Shown piece after piece: positions 22,565 through 52,337 of a stretch of DNA of 64,000 bases. This DNA comes from Halorarum halophilum (lineage in GTDB: Archaea > Halobacteriota > Halobacteria > Halobacteriales > Haloferacaceae), in NCBI RefSeq assembly GCF_013401515.1, contig NZ_CP058529.1, positions 2,790,001 through 2,854,000 on the forward strand. Reading direction: 5' to 3'. Within the stretch, counting starts at the first letter, position 1. The number at the start of each line of letters is the position of its first letter. A program made the position numbers and the translations under genes. The notes under the pieces were generated by a model, which saw nothing but the letters and a program-made list of their open reading frames with translations, was not told where the DNA came from and made no database searches.

Positions 22565-22783
22565 ATGGCACGGGGGTTCGAATCACCGAAACGCGAAAAG
22601 CCGGACGCAGCCGAAGCGATTGAGCCAACGTCGGGTGGGGACCCCGATGGGGTTGGGAGGTGCGTGGACTGCGGGGAGATATACCCGGTTCAGAGGACCG
22701 AACATGGAGGACTTCGCCCGATTGGGGTAGACGGCAGGTGCGATTGTGGAAATACGGAGTTTCTCCCATGCACCGATATCTAG
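22565..22783 (+). CDS. Zinc-ribbon microprotein, copy 1
   Basis: The protein has 72 residues. It starts MARGFESPKREKPDAAE, then GDPDGVGRCVDCGEIYPV, and ends GRCDCGNTEFLPCTDI. The CVDC and CDCG pairs with the last Cys would bind one zinc ion. A near twin of the same length (roughly four residues in five identical) lies at 45992-46210 on the other strand. Small single-domain zinc proteins are abundant in haloarchaea and some act in regulation; this one has no known role. A copy of the dispersed repeat lies 55 bases after the stop, as it does near the twin. ATG at 22565 is chosen because the twins align from there. Confidence 0.8.
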   Translation: MARGFESPKREKPDAAEAIEPTSGGDPDGVGRCVDCGEIYPVQRTEHGGLRPIGVDGRCDCGNTEFLPCTDI

Positions 22784-22819
22784 AAACCCCTGTACTCAGC
22801 GACACATTCACCCAGCACA

Positions 22820-22898
22820 TCAGCTCGCCCTCGTGCCCGATACGCGCCCTGTATTCAGCGAGGCTGCTGAAACCTATCTTCAGTTGATGGTTTCAACG
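22820..22898 (-). repeat. Dispersed repeat (core GATACGCGCCCTGTATTCAG on plus strand), outlying copy
   Basis: The core at 22839-22859 is the reverse complement of the CTGAATACAGAGCGCGTAT repeat found throughout 41-47.7 kb. The surrounding 75 bases closely match 47680-47755: CTCGTGCC before the core, and after it an inverted pair GAAAC/GTTTC. It lies just downstream of zinc-ribbon copy 1, in the same relative orientation as the repeat next to copy 2. Confidence 0.7.
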
Positions 22899-40973: not shown

Positions 40974-41187
40974 GTCGAACCCGATCGAACTCCCACGAGG
41001 ACGAACGGGAAACTCTACCCTGTTGAGCCCCTCAGAACCTGATACGAACCGTGTGGTAGATACAGAGAAGTATTCAGCATAGCGCCAGTATTTGATTCAG
41101 AGATACCCAACTGAACCAGTCGCTACGTAGACCCGCGAACTGATCGGCGGAATTTCTATCAGGTACAGATGACGTTCGTCGAGCCAC

Positions 41188-41208
41188 GCTGAATACATAG
41201 CGCGTATC
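41188..41208 (+). repeat. Accessory-region repeat, site 1
   Basis: The core is CTGAATACATAGCGCGTAT. It lies 54 bases past the stop of the 66-residue gene that follows on the minus strand. A partial relative (GTATTCAGCATAGCGCC, 41070-41086) lies just before it. The gap 40974-41262 otherwise has only the fragmentary frame read on the minus strand from this site (LDERHLYLIEIPP), which may be a gene remnant. Confidence 0.6.
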
Positions 41209-41262
41209 TTGGACGGTGTCTCCTCCAGCTTCTGGGTTAGCGAATCGGTCAGTACTGGGGAT

Positions 41263-41463
41263 CTACGTGTCGATATGGTGTACTGCCTCCGGGGAAAGGA
41301 GGCGACCAGTTGAGAGTTCGACCCACCCGTTTGCGAGCACACGAAGTTCTCCTTCGTGGAGGACGGTTTCCTGGTCGAAGTCGGCATACACGATCGCGTT
41401 CTGGTACTCCTGTACGATGTTTTCAGCGAACTCCTCCCAAAGTGATTCGGTCGAGATAACCAT
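41263..41463 (-). CDS. Orphan acidic protein, 66 residues
   Basis: The frame starts MVISTESLWEEFAENIVQEY and has AIVYADFDQETVLHEGELRVLANGWVELSTGRLLSPEAVHHID. It is an acidic, compact sequence with alternating strands and helices. ATG at 41463 lies 25 bases after CTTTATTG (41484-41491, minus strand), a good leaderless promoter. No family is recognised. It lies between repeat sites 1 and 2. Confidence 0.6.
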   Translation of the reverse strand: MVISTESLWEEFAENIVQEYQNAIVYADFDQETVLHEGELRVLANGWVELSTGRLLSPEAVHHIDT

Positions 41464-41609
41464 ATTGTCACATTCGACAAGCGCAATAAAGTAGTTCCGG
41501 GTGATCCGACTACTCGTTCCACAGCGTGTGCCCTCCGAAATACGCAGATCCACCGAGCAGGCGGTTCACCAGGCTCAGCGTGAAACAGATGAAGTCGTTG
41601 TGCTGAACT

Positions 41610-41689
41610 CGCCCTCTGTAGTCAGTACGCTGCATCTGACAGTGGCCACGTAGGTCGGCCCCCTCCATACGAGATACAGGGCGCATGTC
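41610..41689 (+). repeat. Accessory-region repeat, site 2 (long form, diverged)
   Basis: It starts CCCTCTGTAGTCAGTACGC and ends GATACAGGGCGCATGTC. The order matches the long copies at 43580, 45794 and 46381. Internal sequence is more diverged. The gap 41464-41769 holds this element and the promoter of the next gene (CCTAATCGC near 41738). Confidence 0.55.
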
Positions 41690-41769
41690 TCGCTGAAATC
41701 CGGCCCCGGATCGATGCCGTCGACTTTTGCAAGCCTAATCGCTATGCGGTTCACGACCCGAGACCTCCC

Positions 41770-41982
41770 ATGGTCAACTGGAGAAAATACTGGGCCGCGA
41801 TCGGCGTCGCCGAACTGCTAATCCTTGGAACGCTGTTTTTCCTCTTTCCCGAACCCATCACATCGGTCCTGGGTATCGCTCTCGTTCTCCTCGCTGCCGG
41901 GGTTTGGATCGCCGGATGGTATCGGGGAGACCGGGAATCACCGGAGCGTTCAGAGACCGAACGGCGGAGCGTTCGCCGATAA
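41770..41982 (+). CDS. Small membrane protein, 70 residues
   Basis: The frame starts MVNWRKYWAAIGVAELLILG and has two hydrophobic helices (LILGTLFFLFP and SVLGIALVLLAAGVWIAGWY), followed by a charged tail rich in Arg and Glu (RGDRESPERSETERRSVRR). A CCTAATC element lies about 30 bases upstream. Function is unknown. It sits between repeat sites 2 and 3. Confidence 0.65.
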   Translation: MVNWRKYWAAIGVAELLILGTLFFLFPEPITSVLGIALVLLAAGVWIAGWYRGDRESPERSETERRSVRR

Positions 41983-42163
41983 CGACGACCACATCACCTG
42001 AACTGGTGCTGGAAAATGAGGTCTCGGCAGTTAATCCCCGTTTCGCATTACGTGGCCAACCCCGTTGGCCCGAACGAATCCTTGCTTCCGAAGGAACGCT
42101 GAATCCACTCTCTGTATCTCGCACGCCGCTTCTGGCTGAACTCTGGTAGTTTGTCGAGGCGCT

Positions 42164-42184
42164 GCTGAATACAGAGCGCGTATC
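42164..42184 (+). repeat. Accessory-region repeat, site 3
   Basis: The core is CTGAATACAGAGCGCGTAT, an exact match to the consensus, followed by CGGTCAC as at site 5. It lies about 180 bases after the 70-residue gene and 128 bases before the 338-residue gene. The sequence 41983-42163 shows no gene I can support. Confidence 0.65.
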
Positions 42185-42216
42185 GGTCACCAAGTTTTCG
42201 TAATTACCTCTTGTAG

Positions 42217-42288
42217 GAATACTCCAAACAGTGGGTGGAGACGATCGACTACGAGGGAGGCGGCACCAAGTACCTCGTTTTCAAGTGA
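42217..42288 (+). pseudogene. Truncated 3' end of an unknown gene
   Basis: A short open stretch reads EYSKQWVETIDYEGGGTKY and then LVFK before its stop codon at 42286-42288. An in-frame stop lies just before it at 42214. The wording is protein-like, with haloarchaeal codon use. It looks like the last 23 codons of a gene whose front is gone, right after repeat site 3. The parent gene is not identified. Confidence 0.4.
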
Positions 42289-42311
42289 CCTGCCCAATCG
42301 GGTGAGCCAGT

Positions 42312-43328
42312 ATGACTGACAAGACCGACATCAGTACGGCCAACACGATGCGTGAGCGCTCAGGCGAGAGTCGGATTAAACTCTGGTTGCTGCTGCGCGC
42401 GAACCGCATTCTCGTCTCCATCGTCCTGACCAGTGCCGTGTTCGTCGCATTCGTCTTCGCCGTCGCTGTCCTCGATCCACCGTTTTCACAGCAAATCGAG
42501 TCCGGCGACATGATCGACACGATGTTCTCGACGATGATCACGGTCATCGTGACTGGGACGACACTCGTCGTCACGATCGGTCAGCTCGTCCTCTCCCAAG
42601 AGAACGGCCCGCTCGGCGATCAACGCGAGCGTATGTCCAGTTCAATGGATTTCCGGGATTATACTGAAGAATTAATCGGATCTCCGAGTCCTGCCGATCC
42701 ATCCGAATTCCTCCGGCAGATCATCGGAATCACGGCACAACGGACGACGGCTCTTCGAGAGTCTATTGACAAGAATGATAACGAGAACCTCCGAGAAGAG
42801 GTCGATGAATTCGCTGAAAGCGTCACTGGGAACGCTGACACGGTGCGTGACCAACTTGAGAATGCGCAGTTCGGCTCGTTCGATGTGTTATTCGCTGCAC
42901 TAAATTTCAATTATAGCTGGAAAATCTTCCAAGTTGAACGTCTCGCGAACGAATACGAAGAGAGCCTCAATGAGGAAGAACGCGGCTTGCTTGACGACCT
43001 CAAAACAGCGCTGTCTCTGTTTGGTCCGGCGCGCGAACACATCAAGACGCTGTACTTCCAATGGGCACTCATTGACTTGTCTCAGATGATTCTCTATGCT
43101 GCAGTCCCGGCATTGGCCGTTGCGGGTATCATGGTCGGAATCGTCGATGCGGGGACGTTCCCAGGAAGCACACTCGGTCTCGACCACATCATCCTCGTCG
43201 TGGGCGGTGCGTTTGCGGTGACGCTCGTTCCATTCATGCTGTTCGTCTCGTACGTCCTTCGCATCGTCACCATAGCAAAACGGACACTTGCCATCGAGCC
43301 GCTGATCCTCCGCAAATCACAACGCTAA
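42312..43328 (+). CDS. Haloarchaeal integral membrane protein of unknown function
   Basis: The protein has 338 residues. Two helices lie near the N-terminus (ILVSIVLTSAVFVAFVFAVAVL and MFSTMITVIVTGTTLVVTIGQLVL), then a soluble stretch of about 170 residues with coiled-coil-like helices (LRESIDKNDNENLREEVDEFAESV), and two helices at the end (MILYAAVPALAVAGIMVGIV and GGAFAVTLVPFMLFVSYVL). Homologous-looking proteins occur widely in haloarchaea as lone genes. A channel-like or signalling role is a guess. It has its own start and lies between repeat sites 3 and 4. Confidence 0.8.
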   Translation: MTDKTDISTANTMRERSGESRIKLWLLLRANRILVSIVLTSAVFVAFVFAVAVLDPPFSQQIESGDMIDTMFSTMITVIVTGTTLVVTIGQLVLSQENGPLGDQRERMSSSMDFRDYTEELIGSPSPADPSEFLRQIIGITAQRTTALRESIDKNDNENLREEVDEFAESVTGNADTVRDQLENAQFGSFDVLFAALNFNYSWKIFQVERLANEYEESLNEEERGLLDDLKTALSLFGPAREHIKTLYFQWALIDLSQMILYAAVPALAVAGIMVGIVDAGTFPGSTLGLDHIILVVGGAFAVTLVPFMLFVSYVLRIVTIAKRTLAIEPLILRKSQR

Positions 43329-43579
43329 GATCCGACGCAGAACTCAAACCTCAGACACGGTTGGATGTGGACGCTTCGTGAGGTACTGAGGTTAGTCACC
43401 CTCTGAACGGGCGTCGATTGCTCGCGTCCCGCCACAATTCCAATACCGTCCTCCGCGAGGAGATCGACACAGGCGCTGTTGAATGCCTTTGGGAAATTCC
43501 CCAACCCCATTGCAGCCTCTAACATCGAAAATATAGCCCGAAACGATTCGTCGCCCCTAATCCACTGGAATGACCGATG

Positions 43580-43659
43580 GACACTCTATAGTCAGCACGC
43601 CCCTTTTGACAGATGTTGAGTAGATCGTCAAGAGCATGCTGCATACAGGGCGCATAGTC
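43580..43659 (+). repeat. Accessory-region repeat, site 4 (long form)
   Basis: It reads CACTCTATAGTCAGCACGCC, then CTTTTGACAG, GTTGAGTAGATCGTCAAGAG and CTGCATACAGGGCGCATAG. It aligns over about 85 bases with 45794-45880 and less well with 46381-46460. The outer parts (GTAGTCAGCACGC and its partner GTGCTGAATACAG) are roughly inverted to each other, so the element can fold. The gap 43329-43785 otherwise holds a minus-strand frame at 43325-43525 with no recognisable product. Confidence 0.65.
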
Positions 43660-43785
43660 AGCAAGTGGCTCTCCCGAGTCAGCCGCGTGACCCATTGCTC
43701 CGTATAGGTGAGGAGCAGATCACCTCACCCGAAAAGTCGTCAGCCTGTAGAAGATACTTATGTGAGTGCCAGTACATCGTGAAAT

Positions 43786-44184
43786 ATGGCCTTGCTCTCG
43801 CGTCGAGAAGCCCTTGCTTCGGGGGTGGCGACCTTGACCCTCCTGACTACGGGGTGTCTGGGAGGACTCGGAAATGGACTCGGAAATTCCGGTAACCCTG
43901 AAGTTCGACTCCACAACGGTGATACAGCCCAACACGAGGCAAAAGTTGTCGCCACCGGTGACTTCGGCAGTCGAACGGAGTCAGCAGTACTCGGTCCCGA
44001 TGAGGACACTCTATTTGAGAATTTCATTCCGAGGCTTGACTACGATCACCAGTTCACGATTATTGTGACTGTCGATGGTGACGAGGTGTCTACGACGGAA
44101 CACACCTTGCAAGAGTGGCGGCAGTATCTAATTGAAATTGAAGACTCGGAAACGGTCTCGGTAGAGGGTGAGGTCACTCGATAA
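43786..44184 (+). CDS. Tat lipoprotein of unknown function, 132 residues
   Basis: The N-terminus has the twin Arg in LSRREALASGVATLTLLTTG, with a lipobox TTGC at about residue 24. It is therefore exported folded and anchored by lipid. The rest (VRLHNGDTAQHEAKVVATGDF, then IIVTVDGDEVSTTEHTLQEW) looks like a beta-sandwich fold. GATACTTATG lies about 29 bases before the ATG, a fitting TATA element. It sits between repeat sites 4 and 5. The function is unknown. Confidence 0.75.
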   Translation: MALLSRREALASGVATLTLLTTGCLGGLGNGLGNSGNPEVRLHNGDTAQHEAKVVATGDFGSRTESAVLGPDEDTLFENFIPRLDYDHQFTIIVTVDGDEVSTTEHTLQEWRQYLIEIEDSETVSVEGEVTR

Positions 44185-44201
44185 GCAGGCCCACGTAGCT
44201 A

Positions 44202-44329
44202 CTGTTTCATCGCAAATGGCCTGAAACGAACGAGGACCGCCTACTGCATACATCCTCTGTATGCAGCAGGTGGTTGGTTCCTGCTGCTCGACAGATCAAT
44301 CGAGCGTTGCTGAATAGAGAGCGCGTATC
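44202..44329 (+). repeat. Accessory-region repeat, site 5 (composite)
   Basis: The first part (CTGTTTCATCGCAAATGGCC, then TGAAACGAACGAGGACCGCC) is about 87% identical to 46333-46393. It runs into a palindrome CTGCATACA-TCC-TCTGTATGCAG (44244-44266). The second part is a repeat core CTGAATAGAGAGCGCGTAT followed by CGGTCAC (44310-44336). The gap 44185-44469 also contains the MFS promoter (GGATATACTCG near 44438). Confidence 0.65.
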
Positions 44330-44469
44330 GGTCACTTACCAGTCGTCTGGTCCCAACTTAGAACGAGAGACCGAGCGAGCGTACCACCTCGCTAGGCTGA
44401 GGTATGCGCCCCGTGGTGAATCCGTAATAACAGGATATACTCGTCGACTTTCCGTTCGCCAGCACACGT

Positions 44470-45708
44470 ATGGCTGGAGGCACGGGTGACGGTGTTCGGG
44501 GAACACTCTCCGGGAGTATCCTGAAGTACTATCTCTACAAGTCGACGAAAGCGGTCGAGTTCTATCGACCGATTATGTACCTCTTCTTTCTGGCGCAGGG
44601 GCTATCGTTCACACAGATCGCGATTCTGGAGGCACTCTACAACCTGACGACGCTGTTTGGGGAGATCCCGACAGGGTATATCGGCGACCGTGTTGGCCGA
44701 CGCAACAGTCTCCTCATCGGAACGTCCCTCATCTCTCTGACGCTCCTCGGTATCGGCCTGTCGAACTCGTTTCTTCCGCTGGCGGGCCTCTACGTCTGCT
44801 GGTCGCTGGGCTACAACTTCCGCTCCGGTAGCGAAGATGCGTGGCTCTACGACACGCTCACCGACGACCTCTCGGAAGACGAGTTCGCCCACGTTCGGGG
44901 ACGCGGAGAGTCGGCGGCGTTAGCCGTCGGAGTCGTTGCGGCGATTCTCGGTGGGTATCTTGGAAGCATCGACCTCTCGTATCCGTGGTTCGTCGCCGCG
45001 GGCGTGACGAGTCTCGGGGTTGTGGTACTGCTCACGCTCGACGAACCGGAGACGTACAAGGACACAGCGACCGATGAACTGAGTCTCCGCCGAACGGTTG
45101 GTATCGTCAGGGAGGTCCTCGCTCGCCGTCGTCTCCGGGCGTTCTTGCTCTACTACTACGTTCTGTACGCCGCGGTCACGTACCTCGTGTTCGTCTTCCT
45201 CCAGCCGATTTTCGAGACGGTGGCTCTCGACCTCGGCGTGGCCCAGTCGCAGGTCGAGGCCCTACTTGGATGGTTCTACGCAGCGTACAGTCTCGTCGGC
45301 GCGATACTCAACTACTACACGGGGACGATCCGGGAGACCATCGGACTGCGAACGTGGTTTCTCGTCCTCCCGTTCGCCGTTGGTGGCGCGTTGATCGGGA
45401 TGTACTTCCTGCCGCTGCTGGCGCTTCCGACGTTCCTCCTGATACGGGGGGTCTCGGATGTCACACGCTCGTTCGCCGGACAGTACATCAACGATCGCGT
45501 GGAGACGCTTGGTCGAGCCACCGTGCTGAGTGCGATGGCGATGGTCAGCGGTCTCGCCGTCGTCCCGTTCCAACTCGGGAGTGGCGTCATCTCCGATGCT
45601 GTCTCTCCGCTGTTCGCACTGGGCGTCGGTGGCGTTGCACTCGTCGTCGGGGCGGCGACCATCCTCCTGTGGGAGTCCCCTATCGGCGAAGAATCAGTTC
45701 GACACTGA
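44470..45708 (+). CDS. Major facilitator superfamily transporter
   Basis: The protein has 412 residues and 12 predicted helices. The motif A region is GEIPTGYIGDRVGRRNSLLIG, between helices 2 and 3. A middle loop follows LDEPETYKDTATDELSLRR and the second half starts ARRRLRAFLLYYYVLYAAV. It probably exports or imports a small compound by proton or sodium exchange; the substrate is unknown and drug-efflux-like homologues are common. A GGATATACTCG element lies about 30 bases upstream. It lies between repeat sites 5 and 6 and is the largest cassette gene. Confidence 0.88.
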   Translation: MAGGTGDGVRGTLSGSILKYYLYKSTKAVEFYRPIMYLFFLAQGLSFTQIAILEALYNLTTLFGEIPTGYIGDRVGRRNSLLIGTSLISLTLLGIGLSNSFLPLAGLYVCWSLGYNFRSGSEDAWLYDTLTDDLSEDEFAHVRGRGESAALAVGVVAAILGGYLGSIDLSYPWFVAAGVTSLGVVVLLTLDEPETYKDTATDELSLRRTVGIVREVLARRRLRAFLLYYYVLYAAVTYLVFVFLQPIFETVALDLGVAQSQVEALLGWFYAAYSLVGAILNYYTGTIRETIGLRTWFLVLPFAVGGALIGMYFLPLLALPTFLLIRGVSDVTRSFAGQYINDRVETLGRATVLSAMAMVSGLAVVPFQLGSGVISDAVSPLFALGVGGVALVVGAATILLWESPIGEESVRH

Positions 45709-45793
45709 CATCTGGCATGGTTAATACACACACAGTAGGCGTCTAACAGACGGTTCACTCGGGACGTTATAGAGAGGGCAGTTCCGTTGCTGA

Positions 45794-45886
45794 AGACATC
45801 CTCTGTAGTCAGCACGCTCCTGTTGACAGGAATTGAGTAGATTGTCGAGAATGTGCTAACTACAGGGCGCGTCTCGGGCACGAGAA
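45794..45886 (+). repeat. Accessory-region repeat, site 6 (long form)
   Basis: It reads ACATCCTCTGTAGTCAGCAC, CTCCTGTTGACAGGAATTGA and GTAGATTGTCGAGAATGTGC, then TAACTACAGGGCGCGTCTCG and GGCACGAG. It aligns with site 4 over about 85 bases. The end GGCGCGTCTCGGGCACGAG matches the reverse complement of the copy at 22820. It lies just downstream of zinc-ribbon copy 2. Confidence 0.7.
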
Positions 45887-45991
45887 CGAGACAACGTGAC
45901 GGTCGACGGAATCGCTAAGAACAGGTAAGACACCTATCGGGGATGCACCTATCCCCCTCACATCTTGTCAAGATTGGCTTGCTGTAGGATT

Positions 45992-46210
45992 CTACATATC
46001 GGTGCATGGGAGAAACTCTGTATTTCCACACTTGCACCTATCGCCTACCCCAATCGGGCGAATTCCTCCATGATCTGTCTTCTGAACCGGGTATATCTCC
46101 CCACAGTCCACGCACATCCCAAGCCCATCGGGATCTCCACCTGTCGTTGGCTCATGTTCTTCGGCTGCGTCCGGCTTGTTGCGTTTCGGTGATTCGAATC
46201 CTCGTTTCAT
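45992..46210 (-). CDS. Zinc-ribbon microprotein, copy 2
   Basis: The protein has 72 residues, the same length as copy 1. It starts MKRGFESPKRNKPDAAEEHE, has GGDPDGLGMCVDCGEIYPV, and ends GDRCKCGNTEFLPCTDM. Zinc-binding positions CVDC and CKC are kept. The ATG at 46210 matches copy 1 exactly in length; a longer frame upstream is not conserved between the twins. A repeat copy lies downstream of both twins in the same orientation relative to the gene (repeat site 6 here). Its function is unknown, possibly regulatory. Confidence 0.75.
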   Translation of the reverse strand: MKRGFESPKRNKPDAAEEHEPTTGGDPDGLGMCVDCGEIYPVQKTDHGGIRPIGVGDRCKCGNTEFLPCTDM

Positions 46211-46332
46211 GGACTCAACCGAACCTACCGGGGCGAACACCGATGTACTCCCTTGATTTTCACTGAGGGTGGTTGTGTGACGAACTGAGTGACAATGGAG
46301 TCCATACCCACAAAGTAGGTTATTCTTAGCGG

Positions 46333-46460
46333 CTGTTTCGTCGCTGATGGCCTGAAACGAACGATGACCGTCTACTGAATACATCCTCCGTAGTCAGCAC
46401 GCCGCTTTTGACAGGAATAAGGCAGGGTCCTCGATCTCTGCTGCATACACAGCGCTAGTC
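46333..46460 (+). repeat. Accessory-region repeat, site 7 (composite)
   Basis: The first 61 bases (CTGTTTCGTCGCTGATGGCC start) match site 5. The next part (ACATCCTCCGTAGTCAGCAC, then GCCGCTTTTGACAGGAATAA, then CTGCATACACAGCGCTAG) is the long repeat form. It joins two modules seen separately elsewhere. The gap 46211-46561 holds this element and nothing else I can name. Confidence 0.65.
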
Positions 46461-46561
46461 GGTCAATAGATTGGGACTCGACAGGAGCAAATTTAGGACA
46501 TTAGTCGATTCCCCCTACTGGCGAGACAAAGTACTTGTAGACCCAATGTGGGAGAAATATT

Positions 46562-46843
46562 ATGAATTACCAAAGAGTGAGACAACTCCTCCTCAACCGT
46601 GAAGTCGTATTCACATCCATTGTATCAACGGGGGGGATGTACATTGCATTCTTCGGAATGGGTAATCCAGATCTTTGGCCGTTCACTGGATTGGGACGAC
46701 GAACGACTTTTTTCTTTGGGTGCGGACCCTACTCTTGTATTCTAACCTCGTGGGGCCTTGGGATTCTCTACACCTCCATTTTTTCTGTCATAGTTGGTGG
46801 TATCGCCCACACAATCCTTACAGAAGCGCCAACTCAGCCGTGA
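46562..46843 (+). CDS. Orphan small membrane protein, 93 residues
   Basis: The frame starts MNYQRVRQLLLNREVVFTSI and has two hydrophobic stretches (VSTGGMYIAFFGMG and LGILYTSIFSVIVGGIAHTIL) with a Gly/Arg/Cys-rich loop between. Base composition is notably more AT-rich than the rest of the window. An AGTACTTG element about 31 bases upstream may be its promoter. No family is recognised. It lies between repeat sites 7 and 8. Confidence 0.5.
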   Translation: MNYQRVRQLLLNREVVFTSIVSTGGMYIAFFGMGNPDLWPFTGLGRRTTFFFGCGPYSCILTSWGLGILYTSIFSVIVGGIAHTILTEAPTQP

Positions 46844-46852
46844 AAATTGCTC

Positions 46853-46873
46853 ACTGAATACAGAGCGCGAATA
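46853..46873 (+). repeat. Accessory-region repeat, site 8
   Basis: The core is CTGAATACAGAGCGCGAAT, differing from the consensus at its last bases. It starts 9 bases after the stop of the 93-residue gene and lies 87 bases before the amphi-Trp gene. A further weak relative (GATACAGAGCATGC) is at 46914. Confidence 0.6.
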
Positions 46874-46959
46874 CAGTACGTTCCTCACACCGATTGATGG
46901 GGTGATCTCTCTAGATACAGAGCATGCACTTATCGGTGCAGGGGGTGTATTGTCACTAT

Positions 46960-47247
46960 ATGCCTGAGGAAGTCCTGTTCAGCTCGGAGAGCGTTCAGAC
47001 CCGCGAAGAAATCGCATCGTATCTTCGCAGTGTCGCTGACAAGCTCGATCAAGGCGGTGCGGTCACGCTAAAATCCGGGTCCGAGTCCGTGACAATGGAG
47101 CCGCCAGCTCGTCCGACGTTCGAGGTCAAAGCCGAACGCGAGGGACCAACGGACGGGCCAGGTGAGCTGAGTATCGAGTTCGAACTCGAATGGGACGAGA
47201 ACGGCAGTGAAGGGGACGGCGGGAGGGGCCAGTTAGAAATCGAGTGA
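46960..47247 (+). CDS. Amphi-Trp domain protein
   Basis: The protein has 95 residues. It starts MPEEVLFSSESVQTREEIAS, then LRSVADKLDQGGAVTLKSGS, and has PARPTFEVKAEREGPTDGPG and ELSIEFELEWDENG. This is the typical wording of haloarchaeal amphi-Trp (TIGR04354-type) proteins, small beta-rich domains of unknown role. GCACTTATCGG lies 29 bases before the ATG, favouring it over the ATG at 46924. It sits between repeat site 8 and the inverted site at 47680. Confidence 0.85.
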   Translation: MPEEVLFSSESVQTREEIASYLRSVADKLDQGGAVTLKSGSESVTMEPPARPTFEVKAEREGPTDGPGELSIEFELEWDENGSEGDGGRGQLEIE

Positions 47248-47378
47248 TCAGTTAGCAATCCTCCTTCGCAGTTGATTCGGTCACAGCCAGTTGAATCTAT
47301 CAGGACGAGCGCGTGGTCTCTGTGAGTGACCTGCCGGATTCCCGTGGAAGATCTGCCGGGAATTAGTTCTCCTCGGAA

Positions 47379-47615
47379 GTGACCCCAGTACAGCGGATTT
47401 ATGTGACGCTACGTGCGGGTGAAGCGGTTACCGGAGCAACTACCGATTCCTCCGGAATCTGCCAAACGTCGCCTGCTGAATATCACGTTGCAGTCAAACA
47501 CCAGTACAGTTGCTCAACGGAACAGGATGAGGCGGACGTGGAGTCGGATGCCTGTTACCTCGTCACCCCCGACGATGCGCAACGTATCAACGGCACCACT
47601 GTGTCGCCCTGTTAG
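47379..47615 (+). CDS. Doubtful small frame, 78 residues
   Basis: A GTG-started frame (TPVQRIYVTLRAGEAVTGAT, then YHVAVKHQYSCSTEQDEADV) has acidic, protein-like wording in its second half (ESDACYLVTPDDAQRI). No clear promoter or family supports it, and the start is uncertain. It may be a remnant. The gap 47248-47821 otherwise holds only the repeat at 47680. Confidence 0.25.
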   Translation: MTPVQRIYVTLRAGEAVTGATTDSSGICQTSPAEYHVAVKHQYSCSTEQDEADVESDACYLVTPDDAQRINGTTVSPC

Positions 47616-47679
47616 AGTCCGTACTCGACTGGACGATAGGTGGCTCACCTGTACTTAGCGATACAATAGAAAGCCACAT

Positions 47680-47755
47680 CGGCCAGCACTCGTGCCTGAT
47701 ACGCGCTATCTCTGCAGGACACCCATTGAAACACATCTTTGATCGAGGTTTCAAC
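47680..47755 (-). repeat. Accessory-region repeat, site 9 (inverted, extended)
   Basis: On the plus strand the core reads GATACGCGCTATCTCTGCAG (47698-47717). It matches the copy at 22820-22898 over about 75 bases, including CTCGTGCC before the core and an inverted pair GAAAC/GTTTC after it. It is the only site of the array pointing the other way and marks the right end of the array. Confidence 0.6.
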
Positions 47756-47821
47756 GAAGCGAAAAACCGATTCGACGGGGCGTCAGCCCCGCGTCCGGAG
47801 TCGACCCGCCGACGGGACGAC

Positions 47822-48243
47822 TTACTCCTGTCCGATCCTGACGTAAGCGATGGCGCCAACGATGGCGACCAGCAGCAGGACGCCGAGCAGGAGCCCGACG
47901 TTGAAGCCGCCGAGTTCCTCCACCGGGTCATTGGTCGGCTCGTCGGTGCCCTCGTCCGCGGGTTCGTCGGTGGACTGGTCGGCCGGTTCGTCGGTCGGCG
48001 TGGCCGCCCCGCTCCCGTCCGCGGAGCCGACCGCGAACACCGAGAAGCCGGGCGTCGTCAGGCGCTGACGGGCTCACCGTTTGCGGTCGCGTCGAAGCCC
48101 GTCAGTTCCTCGGCATTGCCGACCGCTGTTCCTTGATCCGCCAGTACCGTCCCGACTAACGAGACGTTCATCGCAACGACTGATGTAATCATCAGCGTCG
48201 CGAGGATGATCGCGCGTATCGTGCGTGTCGTATTCCGTGTCAT
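47822..48243 (-). pseudogene. Broken surface-protein gene (signal peptide part and PGF-pre-PGF-like end)
   Basis: The upstream part starts MTRNTTRTIRAIILATLMIT, a secretion signal, and stops at 48058 after ATANGEPVSA. The downstream part, in the next frame, reads LTTPGFSVFAVGSADGSG, then a Thr/Asp/Glu/Pro linker (TDEPADQSTDEPADEG) and a C-terminal helix (FNVGLLLGVLLLVAIVGAIA) with YVRIGQE. The TTPGFSVFAVG words are typical of the end of PGF-pre-PGF domains of large haloarchaeal surface proteins. The two parts lie in different frames with little between them, so a large internal deletion plus frameshift is likely. Confidence 0.6.
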
Positions 48244-48419
48244 GATTTCGTTAGATAGCCCGGCAGCACCCAGCGCCCTCCACCGACGTCCGACGCCGGC
48301 GGAGCGCACCCACCCCGAGAACTCACGCGAGCCCCGGTCTGCAACTGCTGGACCGGCTGGTTGCTATCAACGAACTCACAGAACGGAGACGGCATAGTAT
48401 TGGACCGATTATGTACCGC

Positions 48420-48467
48420 TTAATGCCCGGTTTAACACGAGCCTGCACGTCTAAACCGCGGGCTTAA
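48420..48467 (+). promoter_or_regulatory. Inverted repeat upstream of the winged-helix regulator
   Basis: The gap 48244-48556 has no gene. TTAATGCCCGGTTTAA (48420-48435) and TAAACCGCGGGCTTAA (48452-48467) are near-complementary arms separated by 16 bases. This could be an operator or a folded RNA element. The likely promoter of the gene at 48557 (ATAGAATAG, centred near 48529) lies downstream of it. Confidence 0.4.
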
Positions 48468-48556
48468 TCGCCGGATGGTTCCGCCCCCGGCCGTCGCAAA
48501 TTCCATCTCGGCTCTCATGACATTATAGAATAGTTTGATTAGTAAGGTGTACGTAG

Positions 48557-49123
48557 GTGGTATCGACTGTGGCAACCCGACTTCCCCCAGCGACTGCCGC
48601 CCCTTCCTCAAGGCTCGAGGAGACGACGATCCACGACGTGTTGAGCAACGAGCGTCGGCGGTCGCTGCTCTCGTTGCTCGCGGACGAGGGGGAGGACTAC
48701 ACGCTTCGAGAGCTCTCGGAGCGGATCGCGGAACGCGAGTCGGGGACGACGCCTGCCCCCCGGGACGTCCGGCAGAGCGTGTACGTCTCGCTCCAGCAGA
48801 CCCACGTCCCGAAGCTCGTCCGACTCGGCATCATCGAGTACGCCGAGGACGACCACACCGTCCGGCTCAGCGACCGCGCGGGCGACGTGACGGTGTACCT
48901 CGAGGTCGTCTCGGGGTGCGAAATCGCCTGGAGCGAGTACTACCTCGGCCTCGGGATGCTCGGCCTGTTCGTCCTCCTCGCGAACGCGACGGGCGTGCCC
49001 GGGCTGTCGGCGATCCCCCCCGGCGTCCTCGCCGGACTCTTCTTCGTGCTCCTCGCGGCGTCGGCCGCCTATCACACCTGGACGCTCGGGAGTACCGTGT
49101 TCCACCGGATGCTCGCGCGGTAG
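48557..49123 (+). CDS. Winged-helix membrane protein (DUF7344-like)
   Basis: The protein has 188 residues. The N-terminal part has a winged helix: TTIHDVLSNERRRSLLSLLADEG, LRELSERIAERESG and HVPKLVRLGIIEYAEDDHTVRLSD. The C-terminal part has two helices (YYLGLGMLGLFVLLANATGV and GVLAGLFFVLLAASAAYHTW). It is thus a membrane-tethered DNA-binding protein, a common haloarchaeal layout. The GTG start lies 28 bases after an ATAGAATAG element. Its target may be its own promoter, given the inverted repeat upstream. Confidence 0.88.
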   Translation: MVSTVATRLPPATAAPSSRLEETTIHDVLSNERRRSLLSLLADEGEDYTLRELSERIAERESGTTPAPRDVRQSVYVSLQQTHVPKLVRLGIIEYAEDDHTVRLSDRAGDVTVYLEVVSGCEIAWSEYYLGLGMLGLFVLLANATGVPGLSAIPPGVLAGLFFVLLAASAAYHTWTLGSTVFHRMLAR

Positions 49124-49182
49124 GGGTGGATCGGGCACAGCACATTCTGCGCCAAGAGACCGACACCCCCTGAGGCGCCGTC

Positions 49183-50964
49183 TCACGCCTCGGAGACGCC
49201 GGTGACCACGAACCGCGCCCCGCCCTCGTTCCCGGTCCGAACCTCGACCGCCCAGCCGTGGGCGGCGACGAGCTCCCTGACGATCTCGAGCCCGTAGCCG
49301 GTGCCGTCCGCGCTCGACGTGTATCCGGTCCGGAACACCGTCTCGCGGTCGCCAGGGGGCACACCCGGGCCGTCGTCCTCGACGTAGAACCCGGACTCCC
49401 CGTCGAGGCGTCCCACGCGAACCGTGACGTCGGGGCCGGCGTGCTCGACCGCGTTCCTGAAGAGGTTCTCGAGGATTCGCCTGAGTCGCGACTCGTCGGC
49501 CGGGATGGTTCCGAGGGCGCCCGCGACCGTCAACGTGGCCTCCGGGCCGTCGACGGTCCGCCAGGTCTCCCAGACCAGCGGCTCGAACTCGAGCGCGTGC
49601 GGGCTGACGTCGGTGGTTCCGTGCCGCGTGAGCGTGAGGACGTCCTCGATGATGTCGTCCATCCGGGAGAGCGCCCGCCGGGCCGGCGCGAGATGAACGC
49701 TGTCGACCTCGTCGTCGAGGAGTTCGAGACGCCCCTCCGCGACGTTCAGCGGGTTCCGCAGGTCGTGGCTGACGATGCCGGCGAACTCCTCGAGCCGGTC
49801 GTTCTGCCGTTCGAGTTCGCGCTTGCGCTCGCGTCGCTCGGTGATGTCGCGGACGATTCCGACGGTGCCGTCGAACTCCCCGTCCCGGTAGACGAGGGTG
49901 ATCCGCGCCTCGATCGGGACCAGGTCGCCGTCCGCGGTCTCGAGGTCGCCCTCGACCGACCCCCACGGTCTCGCCGCGGACAGGAGGGCCCCGATCTCGG
50001 ACTCGAACCGGTCGTACGTCTCCTCCGTGAGACAGGTGGCCGGGCCGAACTCGAGGAGTTCGGACTCGTCGTAGCCGGTCAGCGTCTCCATCCGGCTGTT
50101 CACCTCGTCGAACGCGCCGGATCTGTCGAGCATGTACATTCCGTCGGCCGCGAGCTCGATGACGTCCTCGTAGCGTTCCAGTTCGCGCTCGCGCCGCTTG
50201 CGCGCGGAGATGTCGCGAAGGACGCCGACAGACCCCGCGAACTCGGCGTCCGGTGCCGGCAACAGACTGACGTGGTCCTCGCAGTACAGCGTCCCGCCGT
50301 CGGCGGTTCCGAGCATCACCTCGACCTGACCCGCCCGCGCACCGCGCTCGAACAGGCGTCGCTGGAAGGCCCGCCCGTCGTCGCCGTCGAGTTCGGTCCG
50401 CTCGACGACCCCGCCATCGCGCCCGACGAGCGTCTCGCGGTCGTAGCCCGTGGCGGCACAGAACGCGTCGTTGACGAAGGTGAACTCGCCCGTCGCGCCG
50501 AGGACGTACACCGGGTCGTGGATGGTCTCGACGAGCGCCTCGTCCCGTTCGAGCGACGCGCCCGGGAGGACCCGTTCGACGCGGTTCCACAGCGCCTCGC
50601 TTCGTTCCTCGCCCCGGCCGTCCCCTTTCCGGAGGTACGCCGCGGGGCCGTTCTCCGCGACCCAGTCGAGCACCGCGTCGGCGGTGTCGCGGGTGTACAC
50701 GACGACCGGAAGACCGGGGTGCCGGCCCCGGACCCTGCACAGGAACGCGGTCCCGCCGAGGTCGTCCGGGTCGCAGACGAGACAATCGACGTCGCCGGCC
50801 GCGAGCCGGTCGACCGCAGCGTTCGCCGACCGCAGGGACTCGATGGCCACGCCAGGACGCGCCGAGAGCGCCGCGGTGGCGGGGTCAGGCGCTCGCTCGC
50901 CCGCATCTACATGGAGGACCGCGTCCGCGTCGTCCGGGCGTGCTCCGTCACGGACGCGACTCAT
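49183..50964 (-). CDS. PAS-domain sensor histidine kinase with receiver-like N-terminus
   Basis: The protein has 593 residues. Residues 1-130 form a degenerate receiver-like domain (CLVCDPDDLGGTAFLCRVRG, then PVVVYTRDTADAVLDWVAENG). Two PAS domains follow (DPVYVLGATGEFTFVNDAFC and DGMYMLDRSGAFDEVNSRME), each ending in a PAC-like VGVLRDISARK or VGIVRDITERR. The H-box is GIVSHDLRNPLNVAEGRLELL, the N-box is NLFRNAVEHAG, and G-boxes are VEDDGPGVPPG and GTGYGLEIV. It is cytoplasmic, with no membrane helices. The ligand or redox cofactor is not readable and no response regulator adjoins it. Confidence 0.92.
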   Translation of the reverse strand: MSRVRDGARPDDADAVLHVDAGERAPDPATAALSARPGVAIESLRSANAAVDRLAAGDVDCLVCDPDDLGGTAFLCRVRGRHPGLPVVVYTRDTADAVLDWVAENGPAAYLRKGDGRGEERSEALWNRVERVLPGASLERDEALVETIHDPVYVLGATGEFTFVNDAFCAATGYDRETLVGRDGGVVERTELDGDDGRAFQRRLFERGARAGQVEVMLGTADGGTLYCEDHVSLLPAPDAEFAGSVGVLRDISARKRRERELERYEDVIELAADGMYMLDRSGAFDEVNSRMETLTGYDESELLEFGPATCLTEETYDRFESEIGALLSAARPWGSVEGDLETADGDLVPIEARITLVYRDGEFDGTVGIVRDITERRERKRELERQNDRLEEFAGIVSHDLRNPLNVAEGRLELLDDEVDSVHLAPARRALSRMDDIIEDVLTLTRHGTTDVSPHALEFEPLVWETWRTVDGPEATLTVAGALGTIPADESRLRRILENLFRNAVEHAGPDVTVRVGRLDGESGFYVEDDGPGVPPGDRETVFRTGYTSSADGTGYGLEIVRELVAAHGWAVEVRTGNEGGARFVVTGVSEA

Positions 50965-50988
50965 TGATAGAACGTATTAGTTAGCTAT

Positions 50989-51006
50989 CCTATATGAATT
51001 AATAGG
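50989..51006. promoter_or_regulatory. AT-rich palindrome in the kinase-dodecin divergent gap
   Basis: CCTATATGAATTAATAGG is nearly palindromic (arms CCTAT and ATAGG). It lies 25-42 bases upstream of the kinase ATG, where its TATA element should be. It may be both promoter and binding site. The rest of the gap to 51235 has no gene; GTATACCAAA at 51211 is the likely dodecin TATA. Confidence 0.35.
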
Positions 51007-51235
51007 TTCGATTGACACGTTCTGAAAATCGGGGAACTGGCGCCTCCGAACCCCGGCCGTCGGTCTGGTGACCCTCGCGTCTCCCGGTTCGCTTCGTCGT
51101 GGGCCCGATATCATCGGAGAGGGGAGCACTTGTAGGCCGACCTTACGGGGCCCGAATCGCCGTGGGGTCACCTACCGAACCACCCTGCCGAGTACGGGGC
51201 GTATACCAAATACGCCGACGACCCTGCACTCTCCC

Positions 51236-51445
51236 ATGACGGCAGTCAAGATCATCAAGGTGCTCGGCACCTCCGAGGAATCGTGGGAGGACGCCGCCGA
51301 ACAGGCCGTGATGGAGGCGAGCAAGTCGGTTGACGACATCAGCGGCATCGAGATCGAGGACTGGACGGCGAACGTCACCGACGACGCCATCACGGAGTAC
51401 AAGGCGACCGTCGAGATCGCGTTCCCCGTCCACGACTCGTCCTGA
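51236..51445 (+). CDS. Dodecin
   Basis: The protein has 69 residues, the usual size. It starts MTAVKIIKVLGTSEESWEDA and has EASKSVDDISGIEIEDWTAN, then YKATVEIAFPVHDS. The conserved Trp in IEDWTAN stacks on flavins in haloarchaeal dodecin, which stores riboflavin or lumichrome as a dodecamer in the cytoplasm. GTATACCAAA lies about 24 bases before the start. The next gene (DUF2267) follows by four bases. Confidence 0.95.
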   Translation: MTAVKIIKVLGTSEESWEDAAEQAVMEASKSVDDISGIEIEDWTANVTDDAITEYKATVEIAFPVHDSS

Positions 51446-51449
51446 TTCC

Positions 51450-51839
51450 ATGGACTTCAGCGAGTTCGTGGGACAGCTCCAGCACCGGCTGGAACTCCCC
51501 GACGAGGGACACGCGGTCCGCGCGGCCCGCGCCACGCTCACCACGCTGGGCGAACGGATCGTCGAGGGCGAGGCGGAGGACCTGGCCAGTCCACTTCCGA
51601 TGGAGATCGACCGGTTCCTGCTCGAGGCCGACTCGGGTCAGCGCTTCCCCTTCGACGAGTTTGTCGACCGCGTCGCCGAGCGGGGGCGCGTCGACCGGTC
51701 CGACGCAGCCTACCACGCGAAGGTCGTCGTCGACCTCGTGAGCGAGGTCGCGCCGGCGGGCGAACTGGAACAGGTCCGGGGCCAGCTCCCCGAGGACTTC
51801 GACCCGCTGTTCGAACTGGTCGACGCGGACGAGGAGTAG
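51450..51839 (+). CDS. DUF2267 family protein
   Basis: The protein has 129 residues. It starts MDFSEFVGQLQHRLELPDEG and has AVRAARATLTTLGERIVEGEAEDLASPLP. A second similar half, with FDEFVDRVAERGRV and AYHAKVVVDLVSEVAPAGEL, makes the usual two-repeat helical DUF2267 domain. It is soluble and acidic. The role is unknown; such genes often sit beside stress-related genes. It is probably in one transcript with dodecin. Confidence 0.9.
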   Translation: MDFSEFVGQLQHRLELPDEGHAVRAARATLTTLGERIVEGEAEDLASPLPMEIDRFLLEADSGQRFPFDEFVDRVAERGRVDRSDAAYHAKVVVDLVSEVAPAGELEQVRGQLPEDFDPLFELVDADEE

Positions 51840-51905
51840 TCGACGGGGACGGGCGACCGTCGGCCGCCGACCCGGACTCCCGGGGGGTGGCCGTCCCACG
51901 TCGTC

Positions 51906-52337
51906 CTACCTGGCGGCAAGTTCGGCGGCCAGCGTCCGGGCGCCCACGTAGCGAATCCGGCGCTCGACGGGGAACCAGAGGCTCCCCAGCGCCGCCCCGA
52001 GCGCGTTCGCGAGCAGGTCGCCCCAGCCAAAGTAGCGGTGGGGCGTTGCTCCCTGGAGGAGTTCGATACCCGCACCGAACGCGAGAGCACCGCCGATGAC
52101 GAGGGCGACGCGTCGAGACGGGTGCTCCCGCAGGTTCGCCGTCGCATAGGCCAGCACGAGCGCGAACCCCGCGTAGGCCGCGAAGTGGAGGCGCTTGTCC
52201 CAGAACGGCGTCGGTGACGGCGGCTCCGGGGGGACGGTGACGAGCGAGAAGTAGCAGATGACGCCGGCGACTCCCAAGACGCCGAGCCAGCGAAGTGACC
52301 GGGGGAGGAGGGGGAACCTGACCCGGTCCATCCTCAC
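51906..52337 (-). CDS. VanZ family membrane protein
   Basis: The protein has 143 residues with about four helices. VanZ-like features are FWDKRLHFAAYAGFALVLAYA, a central block with charges, and GIELLQGATPHRYFGWGDLLANALGAALG. The role of VanZ domains is not settled, though glycopeptide resistance is one known case. GTG at 52337 overlaps the stop of the STT3-like gene (GTGA), so they are coupled; an ATG at 52331 is also possible. The coupling may tie it to glycan transfer or surface assembly. Confidence 0.82.
   Translation of the reverse strand: MRMDRVRFPLLPRSLRWLGVLGVAGVICYFSLVTVPPEPPSPTPFWDKRLHFAAYAGFALVLAYATANLREHPSRRVALVIGGALAFGAGIELLQGATPHRYFGWGDLLANALGAALGSLWFPVERRIRYVGARTLAAELAAR

Follow-up and report, generated by a model that had tools for sequence, protein, structure and literature searches.

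The window analysed here is a stretch of 64,000 nt from Halorarum halophilum (GCF_013401515.1, NZ_CP058529.1:2,790,001-2,854,000, forward strand). It carries two zinc-ribbon microprotein genes, at 22565-22783 (+) and 45992-46210 (-), each encoding 72 aa plus a stop, and the two products are 81% identical. A sequence-only reading had reported these twins together with a repeat downstream of both in the same orientation relative to the gene, and both observations were confirmed, with the repeat lying 60 and 121 bp past the stops. The motif CTGAATACAGAGCGCG was located at 22843-22858 (-) and 45856-45871 (+) beside the twins, and the window held nine copies (≤3 mismatches) against 0.40 expected, a number reached in none of 100 shuffles. 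The repeat proved to be one half of a 27-bp dyad core, and further cores form an array at 41.2-47.7 kb, as listed below.

22565..22783, + strand: zinc-ribbon microprotein gene, twin 1, 72 aa, CVDCG...CDCG (ORF and translation)
22787..22803, - strand: half-site-like motif GTCGCTGAGTACAGGGG, ~57 bp inside the cassette; putative, a possible accessory site
22834..22860, - strand: 27-bp core CGCTGAATACA-GGGCG-CGTATCGGGCA, beside twin 1
22861..22898, - strand: type C flank GTTGAAACC...GGTTTCAG adjoining the twin 1 core, conserved at haloarchaeal solo sites
40974..51960, no strand: 11-kb island carrying the array (comparison with two congeners)
41187..41213, + strand: first core of the array, site 2 type
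41601..41627, - strand: core, site 1 type
42097..42189, + strand: double core (site 1 at 42097-42123, 39-bp spacer, site 2 at 42163-42189)
42312..43328, + strand: cassette gene, hypothetical membrane protein
43571..43663, + strand: double core, whose site 1 is the right-edge break of the 42312-43328 cassette in five taxa
43786..44184, + strand: cassette gene, 132 aa, function unassigned
44242..44334, + strand: double core with type B spacer
44470..45708, + strand: cassette gene, MFS transporter
45788..45814, - strand: core site 1 of the double core adjoining twin 2
45815..45853, + strand: 39-bp spacer, type A, of the twin 2 double core
45854..45880, + strand: core site 2, the repeat copy downstream of twin 2
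45992..46210, - strand: zinc-ribbon microprotein gene, twin 2, 72 aa (ORF and translation)
46373..46465, + strand: double core closing the twin 2 cassette on the 5' side
46562..46843, + strand: cassette gene, 93 aa, function unassigned
46852..46878, + strand: core site after the 93-aa cassette gene
46960..47247, + strand: cassette gene, Amphi-Trp domain protein
47693..47719, - strand: far-end core of the array, diverged, in opposite orientation and with a type C flank

The core is a dyad, TGCTGAATACA-NNNNN-YGTATNNNKCA, with two 11-bp arms around a 5-bp centre, and dyads of this kind are what tyrosine recombinases bind. At 3 mismatches, 38 such cores were found in the 4.3-Mb H. halophilum genome, compared with one for the reversed pattern. 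Cores mostly occur in inverted pairs, forming a double core of 93 bp; the inner gap was exactly 39 bp in 57 of 60 double cores, and the spacer sequence varied among types and genera. Such rigidity suggests that a single complex holds the two cores of a pair. The centre reads TCCTC or CCCTC (top strand) at site 1 and GAGCG, GGGCG or CAGCG at site 2, which makes simple recombination of site 1 with site 2 unlikely. Type C, the commonest form at solo sites of other haloarchaea, is site 2 alone, and GTTGAAA precedes it at exactly 37 bp in 26 of 33 copies. At several loci a half-site-like motif, GCTNAGTACAG or GGTAGATACAGAG, recurs ~57 bp inside cassettes past site 2 and may be an accessory recombinase site; motifs similar to GTCGCTGAGTACAGGGG lie at the same place in the locus G175_1732k and at the 46-kb locus of H. 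halophilum.

In the window array, the cores separate mostly single genes; the products are proteins of 70, 132 and 93 aa, a membrane protein, an MFS transporter, the zinc twin and an Amphi-Trp protein. In the two congeners, no more than 166 and 40 bp lie between the sequences that flank 40974-51960, so the array occupies an 11-kb island that both of them lack. Beyond the window, the motif was detected in 172 of 293 Halobacteriales genomes, with nearly none for the reversed control, and the species-genome collection contained the full 27-mer in 19 stretches, each with a haloarchaeal title. The longest array seen, in genome G175 (L105-L107, G175:C1:55-93 kb), contains 30 site-2 copies over ~37 kb, all in the same orientation, with mostly small genes in both orientations between them. 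It and the window array are thus tandem, directional arrays of one-gene cassettes, and site 1 and site 2, inversely oriented, alternate in the arrays as sites do in dif modules. Two arrays (L110 and L117) start on the 3' side of a larger integrase that has a zinc ribbon at its C terminus. The core motif also occurs on six IMG/VR contigs (L231-L236), and haloviruses or plasmid-like contigs may carry cassettes.

Near-identical cassettes in other genera, and similarity that stops at the cores, make the cores look like recombination sites. A 350-bp cassette is 95% identical between G175 and Haloprofundus halobius (G243); it extends from within a site-2 core into the left arm of site 1, and both flanks differ. 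The cassette of gene 42312-43328 matches G175 at 94% DNA identity and recurs at 92-97% identity in plasmids of about ten genera (Haloterrigena, Halostagnicola, Natrarchaeobaculum, Halopiger, Natronorubrum, Haloarcula, Natrinema and others). In five taxa it extends to CCACTGGAATGACCGA and then breaks, within the site-1 core, into five different sequences, and its left edge in the plasmid copies is not at a core. The window copy, 42230-43656, lacks ~530 bp that include most of the neighbouring DUF4177 gene. Within genus g14, one pair of loci (L199 and L200) is alike over 1.5 kb and another (L182 and L183) over ~230 bp, in each case up to the core, after which they differ; at loci of this genus it is the type C side that stays constant and the opposite side that varies. 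Of 1080 ends of long similarity blocks, 72 lay ≤20 bp from a core, versus 12 for random points, BLAST pairs being counted in both directions. A 600-bp segment of H. halophilum, 90% identical between C1:1468812-1469414 and C3:177899-178499 (L046 and L058), also ends its similarity at cores.

Such breaks lie in repeated DNA, and 27-bp cores are common to many loci, so the flanks might have been swapped by ordinary homologous recombination between repeats, with no dedicated enzyme. We regard this as very unlikely, since the cores of exchanged loci differ in several bases, their arms and spacers have diverged, and the 39-bp spacing is rigid despite different spacer sequences.

A candidate for a dedicated enzyme was found in other genomes. 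A search for tyrosine-recombinase genes close to arrays yielded one family of 234 aa, comprising the catalytic domain only and present in ~20 other genomes, in many of which two cores bound the gene. In most copies at 66-100% identity, one core follows the stop by 36-38 bp and a second precedes the start; distant homologues have no cores. From the stop to the core, the DNA is similar to the end of the 39-bp spacer (CTCCTCAAACG...CAGTAA...GCGTG), which indicates that the recombinase gene occupies the place of the spacer. With genomes counted as independent and relatedness ignored, 20 of 21 genomes with close copies were site-positive, with a median of 4 sites versus 1 (p = 5e-7), and distant homologues made no difference in site number. 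The protein matches PF00589 (6.1e-15, residues 28-219) and carries the catalytic R, K, HxxR and Y of this domain; RAGE, PKT and HxLR are near-invariant, the nucleophile Y is a putative assignment from the sequence, and there is a conserved cysteine insert, C...CGYC. It scored 50.5 bits with the archaeal XerA model NF040815 (cut-off 220) and 20.1 bits with the integron integrase model TIGR02249 (IntI, cut-off 265), to which the tyrosine recombinases of H. halophilum itself score at most 41 bits. Several copies (L137-L157) contain stop codons or are in pieces, a state that recalls an ageing mobile element. Larger integrases lie beside some arrays (G123:C1:548020, G175:C1:763206), but they are only 28% alike and one is frame-shifted, and for this reason they were not preferred as candidates. 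The likeliest enzyme for the cores is the 234-aa tyrosine recombinase, which would act on them.

No copy of this gene is present in the H. halophilum genome or in G175, which has the largest array, and no PF00589 gene lies inside the H. halophilum arrays. H. halophilum must therefore be assumed to have lost its copy or to rely on an enzyme that acts in trans or on the host XerA. The last of these opens a wider alternative, in which the cores are substrates of a host XerA-like recombinase and the 234-aa enzyme is a passenger, or a relative using the same sites. A conserved XerC/XerA-like enzyme was found in each genome examined, that of H. halophilum (C1:991195) being 68-69% identical to the Haloprofundus-group copies; some genomes have sites but not the 234-aa enzyme, the core is close to dif in size, and the modules alternate in orientation like dif modules (PMC13141974). 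We nevertheless judge this alternative rather unlikely, because site number tracks close copies of the 234-aa enzyme, whose gene keeps constant distances to the cores on either side, and the 8 kb examined at the XerA-like gene contained no core.

The double cores could also be miniature mobile elements that insert into palindromes, with the genes as bystanders, in the manner of the small mobile repeats (SMRs) of Haloquadratum. SMRs are ~110 bp long with inverted ends, cause no target duplication, insert into palindromes and move by an unknown mechanism (PMC3119063); here, the recombinase-bearing form and the double core have terminal sequence in common. Random insertion, however, would not yield 30 sites in one orientation, and cross-genus cassettes ending at cores on different spacers would not be expected, so that we hold such elements to be distinctly improbable. 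Exchange at the cores by a tyrosine recombinase remains the preferred reading.

The DNA similarity of the twins begins with the first core base and extends through the gene to ~15 bp upstream of its ATG, with 87% identity over the gene and 73% over the 71 bp adjoining the core, and the 46-kb copy carries an insertion of ~60 bp relative to the 22-kb copy. Past the core the two loci are unrelated, with a type C flank at 22 kb versus a type A double core at 46 kb. At 46 kb the repeat belongs to a 93-bp double core and another double core bounds the gene on its other side, so this twin is a cassette inside the array; the 22-kb twin is flanked by one core, on one of its sides, and is probably a single cassette beside a landing site. 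An empty site for the 22-kb twin was not found in the relatives searched, since its flanking genes are not adjacent in them. Homologues with the same site on the same side and in the same orientation, 30-60 bp from the stop, were found in the Haloprofundus group (two in G175, one in G012), and the G012 locus and one of the G175 loci have a second core on the far side, making a complete cassette. A further homologue, in G215, is a weak sixth case. In all, a site lies near 5 (plus the weak one) of 47 homologues (E up to 1e-6), always in the same geometry, and near 2 of the 8 in the H. halophilum genome, the other 6 having none.

Most homologues thus have no repeat nearby, the very outcome that the sequence-only reading had named as speaking against its proposal that gene and repeat moved as one unit. 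The proposal is supported for a subset of copies, in which similarity starts exactly at the core and the far side differs. By our estimate, from ~30 sites in 4 Mb, a site would lie near a gene by chance at a rate of ~0.2% per gene. Being rare and yet far above this rate, with constant geometry, the 5-6 of 47 cases indicate that the zinc protein is an occasional cargo. Of the two roles that the sequence-only reading had offered, cargo is hence favoured; the other, a part in the mobility or regulation of the repeats, was rejected on distribution, as dozens of unrelated genes lie between the same sites, and a mobility role better suits the tyrosine recombinase gene that the sites bound.

A related possibility would make the repeat an operator or terminator bound by the zinc microprotein. 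In its favour, both twins have the repeat at their 3' end, and the repeat is palindromic in part. However, the genes beside most sites are unrelated, and 6 of the 8 homologues in this genome are without a site. An RNA family was also rejected, as Rfam gave no match in the array. Single-strand folds of three elements on both strands had z-scores of -0.20 to -2.67, most of them not unusually stable, with no common full-length hairpin. An operator or terminator role is thereby hardly credible.

The structure model of the zinc protein was weak (pLDDT 68), and in a search of solved structures this weak model found no significant match. Distant matches in long frames were set aside as zinc-ribbon repeats of proteins that, by their sequence, resemble topoisomerase I, rather than relatives of interest. 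The C(P)XCG zinc-finger micro-proteins of Haloferax volcanii are likewise very small and haloarchaeal, with four cysteines in two short motifs (PMC6562870; PMC11241148). Unlike that class (<70 aa, two C(P)XCG motifs), the twins are 72 aa long and carry CVDCG and CDCG, the second motif being CxCG; other members of their family have ~56-70 aa. Deletion of small zinc-finger proteins in Haloferax alters biofilm and swarming (PMC6562870), and these phenotypes may, by analogy, provide a lead.

Taken together, the repeat is probably a recombination site of a tyrosine recombinase, with paired cores as cassette junctions, solo type C cores as landing sites and the zinc protein as cargo. The architecture and spacing, the directional arrays, the cross-genus cassettes, the breaks at cores and the recombinase bounded by cores are shown by the sequences and point in this direction. 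That the enzyme acts on the cores, in trans where its gene is absent, is inferred, as are the use of solo cores as landing sites and what the zinc protein does. Recombinase dimers would bind the cores, and two cores would synapse and exchange strands at the centre. Two inverted cores exactly 39 bp apart would form a compact junction between neighbouring cassettes. Exchange at the cores would then excise, invert, exchange or insert a cassette, usually of one gene, or a cassette with its 39-bp spacer. Cores of equal type in direct orientation would release or take up cassette plus spacer, from which directional arrays would result, and solo cores with the conserved type C flank would be fixed landing sites or entry points. 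The support for exchange is comparative throughout, and the 22-kb twin with its one core, the left edges of the widely shared cassette in plasmids and the lack of the recombinase gene in H. halophilum and G175 count against it.

Accessory-gene exchange and stockpiling by haloarchaea is an open question. Our literature search returned nothing direct on the motif or on haloarchaeal cassette systems and no published description. Published archaeal integrons come from metagenome bins rather than cultured strains, and the main text of that report has no word beginning with halobacter, haloarchae or halophil (PMC9668308). The candidate system described here comes from haloarchaea that have been cultured and sequenced; its sites and cassettes are defined and an enzyme can be named as candidate, which makes it directly testable. 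Many of the small orphan genes that islands and plasmids of haloarchaea carry, the zinc twins included, could be cassettes of such a system. Halobacteria may even own an integron analogue, distinct from IntI/attC, with double-strand cores rigidly paired 66 bp apart centre to centre, fixed landing sites, directional arrays of up to 30 sites and a small, dedicated tyrosine recombinase borne in the spacer position of the site, a tentative proposal to which we give slightly less than an even chance.

Like bacterial integrons and dif modules, the candidate system would use short paired sites to mark one-gene cassettes swapped between genomes. With integrons and attC clusters, including the archaeal examples (PMC9668308), it has in common long arrays of one-gene cassettes and composite inverted sites around a spacer, all in one orientation. 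Unlike in integrons, the haloarchaeal sites have no GTTRRRY core, the spacer length is fixed rather than variable, and the genes face both ways. In place of the attC boxes GTTRRRY and RYYYAAC the arms are TGCTGAATACA and YGTATNNNKCA, the three elements folded do not form the stable single-strand hairpin of attC on either strand, and neither the TIGR02249 scores nor a search for PF00589 places an IntI in the H. halophilum arrays. A strict integron was accordingly rejected on integrase score, box sequence and folding, and the system is filed as a variant of site-specific cassette systems. It also resembles, by description, the SMRs and PATEs of Haloquadratum, which are ~100 bp long with inverted ends, lie in palindromes, make no target duplication and have no known mobilising enzyme (PMC3119063); the full 27-mer itself occurs in Haloquadratum walsbyi J07HQW2. 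In the dif (pdif) modules of Acinetobacter, short 11-6-11 dyads in alternating orientation bound small modules, which must alternate in type and are shuffled by recombination (PMC13141974). The haloarchaeal core is 11-5-11 by symmetry, 27 bp compared with 28 bp for dif. The system differs from dif modules in site sequence, in its archaeal host and in its long, unidirectional arrays; one module class is nearly always an empty spacer of fixed length, 39 bp, and in other haloarchaeal genomes a tyrosine recombinase stands in the spacer position.
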